Of a stretch of DNA of 64,000 nucleotides, positions 4,081 through 59,346 are shown in pieces (position 1 is the stretch's first letter; each line of letters starts with the position of its first letter). The position numbers were made by a program, and so were the translations under genes. Origin of the DNA: Parvibaculaceae bacterium Mf 1.05b.01 (GTDB lineage: Bacteria > Pseudomonadota > Alphaproteobacteria > Parvibaculales > Parvibaculaceae); contig BAOK01000002.1 of the NCBI GenBank assembly GCA_000509225.1, forward strand, positions 66,496 through 130,495, written 5' to 3'. The notes beneath the pieces are model-generated. The model did not search any database, was not told the origin of the DNA, and was given only the letters and a program-made list of their open reading frames with translations.

Positions 4081-4123
4081 GCGTTTTCGAACCACAAAAG
4101 TCTGCAACTTTTATTGAAAACGC
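4081..4123. repeat. Dispersed cruciform repeat, copy 2
   Basis: A 43-bp element with perfect 8-bp outer arms GCGTTTTC (4081-4088) and GAAAACGC (4116-4123) and an inner AAAAGT/ACTTTT stem. It differs from the copy at 34405-34447 at only two positions over 43 bp. It lies 27 bp beyond the rubrerythrin stop, in the 158-bp gap before the Fe-S gene. Confidence 0.85.
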
Positions 4124-4150
4124 TCGGTAGCCTGCCCTGCTTCCAAATTT

Positions 4151-17645: not shown

Positions 17646-19307
17646 CTATGCCTCAGCCTCCGGTGTTGCTTCTCCTTCGGCAGCTTCGCCGTTTTCTTCC
17701 TGCTCCTCAGCGTCTGCTTCAGCCGCTTCTGCTTCTGCGGCGGCTGCCAGTTCTTCTTCGGTCACCCATCCTGCCATCACGCGGGCTGCCATGATCATGG
17801 CCTGGGCTTCTTCAGCTCCAAGGTCGAAGCCGTCCAGGATACCATCCATCCGGGTGCGCTCTCCGTCGACATGCTCATACCACCCGATCAGATCATCAGT
17901 GACACAGCCTGCAACATCTTCGACTGTCTTAATTTCGTTTTCACCGAAAGCCACAAGCATCGCGGTGGTCACACCAGGCACTTCTGTTACTTCATCCTGC
18001 ACACCCAGCTCGCGGCGCTTGGTGTCAAACTCGGCATTCTGGCGATCGATAAAGTCGAGCGCGCGGTTCTGAATTTCCTGCGCGGTTTCTTCATCAAAGC
18101 CTTCGATCTCAGCAATTTCCTCAACGGGAACGTAGGCTACTTCTTCAACTGACGAGAAGCCCTCTGATGCCAGCAACTGCGCAATCACTTCATCCACATC
18201 GAATGCCTGGACAAAAGTTTCAGAGCGCTGAAGGAATTCAGCCTGACGACGCTCAGATTCTTCCGCCTCTGTCAGGATGTCGATATCCCAGCCTGTAAGT
18301 TGCGAGGCGAGGCGAACATTCTGACCACGACGTCCAATTGCCAGTGACAATTGTTCATCTGGAACCACCACTTCAATACGCTGTGCATCTTCGTCGAGCA
18401 CAACTTTCACAACTTCTGCCGGTGCAAGTGCATTAACGATGAAGCCCGCAAAATCATCCGTCCATTGGATGATGTCGATCTTCTCGCCCTGCAGTTCGTT
18501 CACCACAGCCTGAACGCGGCTACCGCGCATCCCCACGCAAGCGCCGACAGGGTCAATGGAATGATCGTTTGAGGTTACGGCAATCTTTGCGCGTGATCCT
18601 GGATCACGAGCGACTGCACGCACATCAATAATGCCGTCATAAATCTCCGGCACTTCCTGAGCGAAGAGCTGTGCCATGAACTGAGGATGTGTTCTGGACA
18701 GGAAGATCTGCGGCCCACGCTGTTCGCGGCGCACATCGTAAATGTAAGCGCGGATACGGTCTCCTGCGCGGAAAGCTTCACGTGGCAGGCCTTCGTCGCG
18801 ACGGACAATTCCTTCGCCGCGGCCCAGGTCGACAATCACGTTGCCATATTCAGCACGCTTCACGATTCCGTGGACAATCTCGCCAATGCGATCTTTGTAT
18901 TCTTCGAACTGACGCTCACGCTCTGCGTCACGTACTTTTTGCACGATGACCTGTTTTGCGGTCTGTGCGGCAATCCGTCCAAAATCAACCGGTGGCAACT
19001 CGTCTTCGATCAGGTCACCGACGCGCGCTGCCGGGTTCCGGCGCTGCGCATCTGTAACAGTGATTTCTGTCGCGTCATTGTCAATGACATCCACAACATC
19101 GAGCAATCGCACGAGACGAATTTCGCCGGTGTTTGGGTCGATGCGCGCGCGAATTTCATTTTCCGCACCGTAGCGAGACTTGGCCGCTTTCTGGATCGCT
19201 TCCGCCATTGCTTCGAGAACCAGTTCGCGTTCGATCGATTTTTCCCGCGCGACTGCATCAGCAATCTGCAGAAGTTCCAATCTATTTGCGCTCACAGCCT
19301 GAGCCAT
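17646..19307 (-). CDS. nusA: Transcription termination/antitermination factor NusA
   Basis: 553 residues. The order is an N-terminal RNA-polymerase-binding domain (about 1-125), S1 (about 135-200, VHGIVKRAEYGNVIVDLG), two KH domains (PVGACVGMRGSRVQAV, LAIGRRGQNVRLASQL) and C-terminal acidic repeats plus an Ala/Glu-rich tail. NusA promotes pausing and hairpin-dependent termination and takes part in antitermination. It follows rimP as in nearly all bacteria. The 116-bp leader holds a threefold 27-bp hairpin repeat directly before the ribosome-binding site, so RNA-level control is plausible. ATG start. Confidence 0.97.
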   Translation of the reverse strand: MAQAVSANRLELLQIADAVAREKSIERELVLEAMAEAIQKAAKSRYGAENEIRARIDPNTGEIRLVRLLDVVDVIDNDATEITVTDAQRRNPAARVGDLIEDELPPVDFGRIAAQTAKQVIVQKVRDAERERQFEEYKDRIGEIVHGIVKRAEYGNVIVDLGRGEGIVRRDEGLPREAFRAGDRIRAYIYDVRREQRGPQIFLSRTHPQFMAQLFAQEVPEIYDGIIDVRAVARDPGSRAKIAVTSNDHSIDPVGACVGMRGSRVQAVVNELQGEKIDIIQWTDDFAGFIVNALAPAEVVKVVLDEDAQRIEVVVPDEQLSLAIGRRGQNVRLASQLTGWDIDILTEAEESERRQAEFLQRSETFVQAFDVDEVIAQLLASEGFSSVEEVAYVPVEEIAEIEGFDEETAQEIQNRALDFIDRQNAEFDTKRRELGVQDEVTEVPGVTTAMLVAFGENEIKTVEDVAGCVTDDLIGWYEHVDGERTRMDGILDGFDLGAEEAQAMIMAARVMAGWVTEEELAAAAEAEAAEADAEEQEENGEAAEGEATPEAEA

Positions 19308-19325
19308 TGTCTCGTCTCCGTTTTA

Positions 19326-19403
19326 GCCTCGCGCCAAGGGCGCTAATGTTAAGCCTCGCGCCGGGGGCGCTAATGTCAAACCTTGCGCCAGTGGCGCTTA
19401 GAA
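19326..19403 (-). repeat. Threefold 27-bp hairpin repeat in the nusA leader
   Basis: Three imperfect tandem copies with an exact 27-bp period. Each holds GCGCC-NNN-GGCGC (19331-19343, 19358-19370, 19385-19397) with loops AAG, GGG and AGT; the flanks CTCGCGCC and CTAATGT are shared. It occupies most of the rimP-nusA gap. The last hairpin ends 23 bp before the nusA ATG. Confidence 0.85.
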
Positions 19404-19423
19404 TTTCGTTTGTACCTGGTCCC

Positions 19424-19996
19424 TCAGGTGCCAGCTCCAGAGAGCCGTTTTCCGCTTTCATCAATCAAGGTGTCGGTCATCACCAGCCGCGCATCATTCA
19501 CAAGCCGGAAAGGAAGGCCCACGATCTGCGGTTCGTCATGGCCGTCAATTTCCATGCGCAGCAGCACTTCACCATCTTCCATGGCCTGCAAAACACCGCG
19601 AAACCGTTTCCGGCCTGCAAGCATTTCTGAAAGCTCCAGTTTGGCCTCAAAGCCTGACCAGACATCAAAATCTTTTTCCCGCGTGAGCGGGCGGCCAATG
19701 CCAGGAGAGGAAACTTCCAGCGTGTAATTGTTCTTAATCGGATCTTCCACGTCGAGAATCGCCGATGCTGCGCGGCTGACACTCTCGCATCCCTCAACCT
19801 GCATCGTGCCGTCTGGCTTCTCCGCCATGAGCTGCAGGACAGATCCGCCTTCACCTGTAAGACGCACACGCACAAGCTCAAAGCCCAGATCAACAATGGC
19901 TGGCTCAACAAGATCAGCAATTCTGGTCGCAACAGCGCCCGGCGCAACCAAATGGCTGCGGTCGCTCGTATGTTCTGTGTTGCTCTCGCTCTGCAT
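19424..19996 (-). CDS. rimP: Ribosome maturation factor RimP
   Basis: 190 residues. The N-terminal alpha/beta domain (IADLVEPAIVDLGFELVRV) and the conserved NYTLEVSSPGIGRPLT strand, then an SH3-like C-terminal domain, identify RimP. It is needed for 30S maturation. ATG 19996 (MQSESN) is chosen; an upstream in-frame start at 20044 adds 16 residues without similarity. rimP heads the nusA-infB transcription unit, and its promoter should lie in 19997-20174, where I find no convincing -35/-10 pair. A GC-rich palindrome with an A/T run lies at about 20040-20062. Confidence 0.93.
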   Translation of the reverse strand: MQSESNTEHTSDRSHLVAPGAVATRIADLVEPAIVDLGFELVRVRLTGEGGSVLQLMAEKPDGTMQVEGCESVSRAASAILDVEDPIKNNYTLEVSSPGIGRPLTREKDFDVWSGFEAKLELSEMLAGRKRFRGVLQAMEDGEVLLRMEIDGHDEPQIVGLPFRLVNDARLVMTDTLIDESGKRLSGAGT

Positions 19997-20174
19997 GAAT
20001 TCAAGTCGTCCAAAAAGGTCCGTAAATCGGAGCCCAGATAACAAAAAAAGCGGGGCCCCGATCTGGAGTTCCCACTTTCAACAATCAGGCTAGGCCTGCT
20101 ATGTGAAAATTCGTCTGCACATTACTCCCAGAAAGGGGGGCTTTTCAAGCTGTTTATTGAGACGGGTTTTGTCT

Positions 20175-20906
20175 CTATTGGGGAGATGGACCTCGGTTTT
20201 TGCGGCGGAAGGTCAGATAGACCGGGACTCGGCCTTCCCGGCCCGCTTTTGCCTCATAGCGGGTCCCCGGCCAATCATCGGGACGGATACGCCAGTCATC
20301 GGCGCATTCTGCCTGCCACTCAAATACTCCATGAGCCCTCACCTCGCGAAGCGTCCAGCGACTATAGTTCTTAATATCTGTCGCAACCCGAAACTCTGCC
20401 CCATCTTTCATGATGCGGGCCAGCTGATCCAAGGTTTCAGCGGACACAAAGCGGCGCTTATGGTGCCTCTTTTTGTGCCAAGGGTCTGGGAAAAGCAGGA
20501 ATACGCGATCCAGTGAGGCATCTTCTAACCGCTCCAGCACGTCGCGAGCGTCATTGTGGTGGATGCGCACATTTGTGAGCCTTTTTGCCTCTATCTCGGC
20601 CAAAAGCTTTGCAACGCCATTGATGAAGGGCTCGCAGCCGATCAGCCCCACATTCGGATTTGCTGTCGCCTGGGCGACCAGATGTTCGCCACCGCCAAAC
20701 CCAATTTCCAGCCAGACCTGCTCAACAGGTGTGTCAAACAAAGAGGATGGCGCGAGATTGTGTGTATCAAGCGGCACGGCAAGCTTTGGCAGCAGGTTCT
20801 CCATCAGGCTTTCCTGATGGCTGCGCAACTTATGGCCTTGCCGTCGCCCGTAAAGAAGACGCCGCCGACCGGGACTATCGGCAGGCGGCGTTTGTTTGTC
20901 TGACAT
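20175..20906 (-). CDS. trmB: tRNA (guanine-46-N7)-methyltransferase
   Basis: 243 residues. The SAM-binding motif VWLEIGFGGGEHL, the PDPWHKKRHHKRRF motif and the closing GTRYEAKA segment define TrmB. It methylates G46 in the variable loop of tRNAs using SAM, fitting its position 20 bp after metK, the SAM synthetase. ATG 20906 is preferred to a TTG at 20921. A basic N-terminal region precedes the catalytic fold. Confidence 0.95.
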   Translation of the reverse strand: MSDKQTPPADSPGRRRLLYGRRQGHKLRSHQESLMENLLPKLAVPLDTHNLAPSSLFDTPVEQVWLEIGFGGGEHLVAQATANPNVGLIGCEPFINGVAKLLAEIEAKRLTNVRIHHNDARDVLERLEDASLDRVFLLFPDPWHKKRHHKRRFVSAETLDQLARIMKDGAEFRVATDIKNYSRWTLREVRAHGVFEWQAECADDWRIRPDDWPGTRYEAKAGREGRVPVYLTFRRKNRGPSPQ

Positions 20907-34404: not shown

Positions 34405-34447
34405 GCGTTTTCGAACCACAAAAGTCTGCACCTTTTGTTGAAAACGC
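34405..34447. repeat. Dispersed cruciform repeat, copy 4
   Basis: A 43-bp element, perfect 8-bp arms GCGTTTTC (34405-34412) and GAAAACGC (34440-34447), inner ACAAAAG/CTTTTGT stem. It matches the copy at 4081-4123 at 41 of 43 positions although the neighbouring genes differ. It lies between the kdsA stop and the DUF2333 start. Confidence 0.85.
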
Positions 34448-34514
34448 TCTTGGTGAAATGTGGGCGCTTTAACGCTCTTGTTCAAGCGCTGCCACCAAAT
34501 GGTCAAAATACAGA

Positions 34515-59109: not shown

Positions 59110-59346
59110 CCGTTTGAGGATGGAAAACCGGAAGCCCACGTTCAGAATGCCGCTTGAACCAGTGGCGCGGCCTTCCTCACCCTGGAAGCGCTCTCGTTCT
59201 TTTGACGCGCTTCCGGACGGAAAACCGGAAGCCCACGTTCAGAATGCCGCTTGAACCAGTGGCGCGGCCTTCCTCACCCTGGAAGCGCTCTCGTTCTTTT
59301 GACGCGCTTCCGGACGGAAAACCGCTCACACTTTTCCTGGAAGCGC
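59110..59346. repeat. Tandem array of cruciform repeats, 97-bp period
   Basis: Two copies of a 97-bp unit (59122-59218 and 59219-59315 are identical by eye) and the beginning of a third. Each unit is an 82-bp element with arms GCGCTTCC (59207) and GGAAGCGC (59281-59288) plus a 15-bp spacer. The last member (59304-59346) is a short 43-bp form with an inner GGAAAA/TTTTCC stem. The array fills almost all of the 322-bp gap 59030-59351. Confidence 0.9.

Follow-up and report, generated by a model that had tools for sequence, protein, structure and literature searches.

Hairpins in the spacer between two genes of an operon have been documented as processing/stability elements in papBA, as described in the excerpted text of one study (PMC5927463), and the RNase E of Rhodobacter is stated, again in excerpted text, to favour AU-rich sites (PMC6238624). 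In papBA of E. coli, the puf operon of Rhodobacter and the SRPS (selective RNA processing and stabilisation) operons, one or more hairpins are situated behind the stop codon of a first gene and before the ribosome-binding site (RBS) of a second, with A/U-rich sequence adjoining, and the same arrangement is found in the rimP-nusA gap considered here. The intercistronic hairpin of puf reportedly acts as a processing/stability element. The present locus differs from these systems in that it has three to four very short (5-bp) hairpins, three of which are set in a 27-nt tandem with free triloops. A second point of comparison is provided by REP and REPIN elements, which are short palindromic intergenic units that sometimes occur in tandem and are dispersed in many copies; they resemble the array described below in being short palindromic units between genes and differ from it in that the unit of the array occupies one place per genome.

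Almost every bacterium has a rimP-nusA-infB operon, and in E. coli NusA, a protein with RNA-binding domains, represses its own operon, the proposed site of this feedback being an attenuator upstream of rimP (PMC2965389, as far as the excerpted text goes). That attenuator and the array share the operon, an RNA hairpin and NusA as a candidate regulator. They differ in place, the attenuator preceding rimP and the array following it inside the operon, and in that a U-tract closes the attenuator (PMC2965389) and is absent from the array. Here we describe an array of short hairpins that is unique in its genome, lies in a gap that bears hairpins throughout the genus, and changes in its loops while its stems and spacers stay the same. 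Among the titles and opening lines of abstracts surveyed in the open-licence literature, none described hairpins between rimP and nusA.

The array and its place in the operon

The window, i.e. the whole 64-kb stretch of DNA that was analysed, belongs to a genome of 3.82 Mb, designated G000. Its rimP-nusA gap is 116 nt long and contains all three 27-nt units (n = 3), which follow one another at a spacing of exactly 27 and 27 nt (Table 1); TRF calls the array at 19325-19398 with a period of 27 and 0% indels. Each unit has a GCGCC-N3-GGCGC core, and the triloop is different in each. Because rimP and nusA are both encoded on the minus strand, the mRNA carries the array in minus-strand orientation; the array is situated between two co-directional neighbouring genes, as processing/stability hairpins are, and these genes would presumably share a transcript. 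The first-pass annotation had reported three tandem hairpins of exact 27-nt period and differing loops, placed between the rimP stop and the nusA RBS and hence in the nusA leader, and the coordinates agree with it on every count while adding the strand, which it had not named. The identity of rimP rests on that annotation's naming and on gene order, and a tblastn match to rimP served to define the rimP-nusA gap in relatives. For nusA, one plasmid record carries a nusA annotation under its match; the plasmid collection holds six records similar to the start of nusA only.

Table 1. Features of the rimP-nusA region, in window coordinates
Feature	Position	Strand	Sequence or signal	Remarks
Unit 1	19376-19402	-	Hairpin GCGCC-ACT-GGCGC at 19385-19397; spacer AAGGTTTGACATTA	First in the mRNA
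Unit 2	19349-19375	-	Hairpin GCGCC-CCC-GGCGC at 19358-19370; spacer GAGGCTTAACATTA	
Unit 3	19322-19348	-	Hairpin GCGCC-CTT-GGCGC at 19331-19343, then GAGGCTAAA	Beside the nusA RBS
Fourth hairpin	19414-19429	-	ACCTG-AGGGAC-CAGGT	rimP stop codon inside
rimP	19424-19996	-	TGA at 19426-19424; ATG at 19996	Start chosen within mechanical ORF 19424-20044
nusA	17646-19307	-	ATG at 19307; RBS GGAG at 19319-19316	553 aa; RBS by eye
rimP-leader-like element	20043-20059	-	GGGGCCCCGCTTTTTTT	Upstream of rimP, at the usual attenuator position; 7/7 genus members

When the genome was scanned with a 20-nt hairpin pattern, the three places of the array were the only ones with up to two mismatches (0, 0 and 2), and the other 16 matches all had three mismatches, giving a total of 19 compared with 18 for a reversed-pattern control. 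The 13-nt core alone is near background, at 24 places in the genome vs 14 for its control. A pattern of spacer and arms, sought in seven genomes of the genus, occurs only in nusA leaders (seven matches in four genomes), and beyond nusA leaders blastn returned only eight matches, with E values of 0.11-0.85. A repeat scattered over unrelated sites, the outcome that the first-pass annotation had named as telling against its interpretation, was thus looked for and not found, and a selfish dispersed repeat is rejected since the unit occupies one place per genome in both the pattern scans and blastn.

A single hairpin of this type in a 116-nt gap is unexceptional (p ~0.11). The gap together with the last 12 nt of rimP, however, contains four non-overlapping hairpins, against a shuffle mean of 0.73 and with 0 of 200 shuffles reaching four, a comparison limited by the fact that three of these hairpins are not independent, being repeats of a single unit. 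It is the row of hairpins, and not any one of them, that exceeds chance.

Two further identities of the array were considered and rejected. Rfam covariance models gave no match at gathering score in the 64-kb window and, within 19250-20250, two matches far under it (E 0.86 and 3.7), leaving no known RNA family for the array. Nor is the array an intrinsic terminator by the features looked for, as no U-run stands behind any unit and no terminator was matched in 19200-20200, the latter being a weak test.

Substitutions, relatives and folding

The genus sample comprises seven genomes (G000-G006), in six of which NusA was found; in G005, which is 88% complete and whose contig ends shortly after the nusA start, the leader was recovered by pattern, and G001 and G004 have reported contamination above 5%. 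A long rimP-nusA gap is present in all seven (116 nt in G000, G003 and G005, 131 nt in G006, 77 nt in G004, 76 nt in G002 and 80 nt in G001) and in 0 of 24 other family loci, those fetched from the 33 other family genomes searched, where the gap is 0-48 nt; among the family loci examined, the element is thus restricted to one genus. Comparison of copy number among relatives, a check proposed in the first-pass annotation, revealed variation: G000 and G003 have three standard units, G005 and G006 have two, preceded by a divergent first hairpin, and G004, G002 and G001 have none. The unit 1 stem is the same in G000 and G003, while at its position G005 carries GCGTT-TAA-GACGC and G006 carries GGAC-TGGAAC-GTCC. 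Members with no standard unit still have a hairpin before the RBS, namely GGGAT-ACAAA-ATCCC in G004, TGGTGCC-CCTTA-GGCACCA in G002 and ACCGCC..GGCGGT in G001. As judged from these sequences, a hairpin outlasts sequence change across the genus.

The four genomes with standard units (G000, G003, G005 and G006) align without gaps over 68 columns, a stretch that opens immediately upstream of the 5' arm of unit 2 and runs as far as the nusA start codon. Five of these columns vary, all within the six loop columns (p = 6e-7), and units 2 and 3 are identical outside their loops in all four genomes. Over the entire 81-nt array, G000 and G003 differ at 4 of 9 loop bases and at 0 of 72 others (p = 8e-5). 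As yardsticks for the same pair, 53 of 209 fourfold sites in nusA differ (p = 3e-8 against 0/72), as do 474 of 4063 positions in the non-coding gaps of the window (p = 2.5e-4 against 0/72), and the array loops change faster than those gaps (p = 0.015). By these yardsticks the non-loop bases are constrained and the loops are not. In 25 other perfect hairpins of the window's gaps, the gaps being set by mechanical gene calls, stems (32/262) and loops (23/141) change roughly equally. Low divergence as such is not rare, with 35 of 193 overlapping non-coding 81-nt windows showing at most four differences and eight showing none, and for this reason the weight is placed on loop confinement. Selection evidently maintains the stems and spacers and disregards the triloops, to judge from these substitutions, and it would act on hairpin plus spacer either as RNA or as palindromic DNA; the invariance of the spacers could also reflect a DNA-binding site. 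Plain repeat expansion, the alternative that had been raised at the outset, is unlikely, as the loop-confined substitutions amount to more conservation than it would leave.

The period of 27 nt corresponds to nine codons, and the reading frame of the array (ORF 19282-19464) encodes SAxGAR three times. This frame meets a stop before unit 3 in all three relatives (G003, G005 and G006), after which G003 and G005 have no ATG, GTG or TTG and G006 has one ATG. A coding repeat is therefore disfavoured, and the units are unlikely to encode a conserved peptide.

Folded in full, the leader does not exceed shuffled versions of itself in stability (z = -0.65 for the mRNA strand and +0.42 for the other strand), and its overall stability was dropped as evidence. 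Every GCGCC arm can pair with any of the GGCGC arms, and the predicted equilibrium ensemble is mostly arm-swapped: local hairpin probabilities for units 1, 2 and 3 are 0.01, 0.98 and 0.01 in G000 and 0.99, 0.01 and 0.00 in G003, and those for units 2 and 3 are 0.13 and 0.13 in G005 and 0.30 and 0.32 in G006. In G004 the first hairpin has a predicted probability of 0.99 of forming locally, and in G005 and G006 it is part of the minimum-energy structure. If local pairing is faster during transcription, as may be argued, and if the relatives' first hairpin is a guide, the local hairpins would form. Despite one two-sided change (C-G to U-A) and one one-sided change (C-G to U-G), unit 1 of G005 still has its triloop and all five pairs; the covariation, measured on three sequences, is not significant, as 163 of 500 shuffles were as good. 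The results on leader stability, arm swapping and covariation all speak against an RNA reading.

The fourth hairpin, which spans the rimP stop, is found in five of the seven genus members, with arms CACCTG/CAGGTG in G003, CACCTGA/TCAGGTG in G004 and G006 and ACACCTGA/TCAGGTGT in G005, a variable loop, and one end pair lost in G000. Its predicted pair probability is 0.31 in G000, 1.0 in G003, ~0.9 in G005, ~0.85 in G004 and 0.13 in G006, where the 3' arm pairs preferentially elsewhere (0.86 vs 0.13). Since the 5' arm is coding sequence of rimP, the conservation of this hairpin has an additional cause.

Taken one at a time, the hairpins are less striking: in six genus members even the best one in the gap does not exceed chance (shuffle p 0.10-0.28), the exception among the seven being G002 (0 of 300 shuffles). 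Among 27 distinct alphaproteobacterial gaps of at least 40 nt, seven of them from the genus, the best hairpin has a shuffle p <=0.1 in only five, and the generalisation that long alphaproteobacterial rimP-nusA gaps carry hairpins was dropped. Two gaps before nusA in Hyphomicrobiales MAGs merit separate mention: one (L076) contains the inverted repeat CAAGCCCCC-GATTGCG-GGGGGCTTG (0 of 300 shuffles as good), and another (L099) contains, by eye, a long imperfect inverted repeat, its best perfect hairpin being within chance.

Candidate functions of the array

We assign the array provisionally to the structured intercistronic spacers, a broad kind whose mechanism in this instance is inferred. Our preferred but tentative reading, to which we give somewhat less than even credence, is that of an intercistronic processing/stability element that frees the expression of nusA-infB from that of rimP. 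The pattern fits an element in which both stems and spacers are needed, and among the mechanisms considered this one is the most ordinary. Such an element would consist of the stop-codon hairpin of rimP and one to three small hairpins before the nusA RBS, with tandem 27-nt copies of hairpin plus A/U-rich spacer in one species group. It would work in cis on a polycistronic rimP-nusA-infB mRNA, presumably a single transcript. Cleavage would take place in the A/U-rich spacers (CUUAACAUUA), and the remaining hairpins would give the nusA-infB segment a structured 5' end and rimP a barrier on its 3' side; the nusA-infB mRNA would then be more stable than the rimP mRNA and would be expressed independently of rimP. 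One mRNA across the gap, local folding of the hairpins, processing and an effect on mRNA level are the steps that we infer.

The array might alternatively be the functionless product of slippage that duplicated a hairpin-forming stretch. Short hairpins are prone to slippage, the period is exact, the number of units differs across relatives, the gap is short in the other family loci examined and single hairpins are mostly near chance, all of which would fit neutral expansion; yet we judge it unlikely in view of the absence of change at 72 non-loop bases next to four changes in nine loop bases, with fourfold sites differing by ~25 percent, and of the recurrence of loop confinement across four genomes. 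Gene conversion could keep the units alike, yet it should do the same to their loops. Somewhat less likely still is the proposal that the hairpins shield a 76-131-nt gap, which would otherwise be untranslated, against Rho or reinitiating ribosomes, and so do no more than render a long spacer harmless. Long gap and hairpins do co-occur in the genus, and intercistronic Rho-dependent termination is known, according to an excerpt of PMC9239205, but this proposal leaves the invariance of the spacers unexplained, and the long rimP-nusA gaps of other alphaproteobacteria are mostly without a notable hairpin.

With sites recurring at even intervals, spacers that do not vary and loops that do, the array also resembles a multi-site platform, on which a protein (NusA, a ribosomal protein or an RNA chaperone) could bind the leader stems and spacers to repress or activate nusA translation, and the autorepression and RNA-binding domains of E. 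coli NusA (PMC2965389, in its excerpted text) would agree with this. We consider such control improbable, as the NusA site proposed in the same source lies upstream of rimP, where a candidate for it is present here, and as three of the seven genus members have no standard unit and only hairpins of unrelated sequence, so that no recognised sequence is common to the whole genus. A more specific form of the proposal, in which evenly spaced 5-bp stems serve as rigid spacers that expose single-stranded GAGGCUUAACAUUA repeats for binding in trans, and in which a nusA-specific feedback is tuned by the number of copies, is more doubtful again; candidate factors would be NusA, a ribosomal protein, or the 30S subunit by way of an SD-like GAGG, and if it were true, the operon would contain a second feedback, distinct from the attenuator that precedes rimP. 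A comparably low probability attaches to the palindromes as DNA operators or as part of an internal nusA promoter region. A dimeric DNA-binding protein would likewise yield conserved stems around a free 3-bp centre, and unit 1 contains TTGACA. In G005 and G006, however, this hexamer reads TTAACA, and the unit 1 palindromes of the relatives change sequence yet stay palindromic, which a single operator would not tolerate. A sigma-70-type scan of 19200-20200 found no promoter, with 0.5 expected from shuffles, and a promoter was rejected as the identity of the array on that basis, although alphaproteobacterial promoters may escape the scan.

A second element within the operon, particular to one lineage, would mean that some lineages set the amount of RimP relative to NusA and IF2 separately. 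The tandem copies and the clean pattern of stems vs loops also expose selection on very short hairpins with only four genomes.

The rimP leader and other repeats of the window

In the first-pass annotation, the array had been taken to suggest autoregulation by NusA. No result specific to NusA was obtained and an attenuator-like element sits upstream of rimP, so that this suggestion, while possible, is unsupported; nor is the array a general device for NusA self-control, because nusA trails rimP by 0-48 nt in the 24 other family loci. The attenuator-like element, GGGGCCCCGC-T7, is found upstream of rimP in every one of the seven genus members. A loose motif of G-run, C-run and T-tract occurs 400-1100 nt before nusA at 35 of 81 loci, four of these 35 being genus members. 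As Rfam has no match to the GGGGCCCC-T7 sequence upstream of rimP and a terminator scan of 19200-20200 passes over it, the element is described here as resembling an attenuator only. The surrounding region (20043-20098, minus strand) includes a hairpin, CAGGC-CTA-GCCTG, followed by GAAAGTGGGA and GGGGCCCCGCTTTTTTTG, in all seven genus members. In G001 the hairpin is CTGAC..GTCAG, with two pairs changed on both sides (by eye), and the gap 20045-20102 shows 0/58 differences to G003 and 1/58 to G006. Perhaps this conserved leader is the rimP attenuator of the lineage with an extra conserved hairpin.

A 45-nt imperfect palindrome, GCGTTTTCGAACCAYAAAAGTCTGCAMCTTTTRTTGAAAACGC, unrelated to the array, occurs in the window at 34405-34450 and 4081-4125. 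Copies are found at 37 places in the window's own genome, 31 in G003 and 35 in G006, locally as two to five in tandem at ~55-62 nt. They are one-stranded chromosome-wide, with 37/37, 30/31 and 35/35 copies, respectively, on the same strand; local BLAST placed 16/16 copies in the stretches fetched from G003 and G006, and 2/2 in the window, on that same strand. At 12 loci this strand is independent of the direction of neighbouring mechanical ORFs. It is also not tied to replication direction: samples from 20 places in G003 show the GC skew reversing twice, once at 0.85-1.05 Mb and once at 3.05-3.40 Mb, and the strand does not reverse with it. Rfam gave no match on one locus with tandem copies, and no mechanism known to us would confine the copies to one strand over a whole chromosome. 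Lastly, a 97-nt unit is present at 59118-59324 of the window in two nearly perfect tandem copies (2.1 copies, 99% matches).
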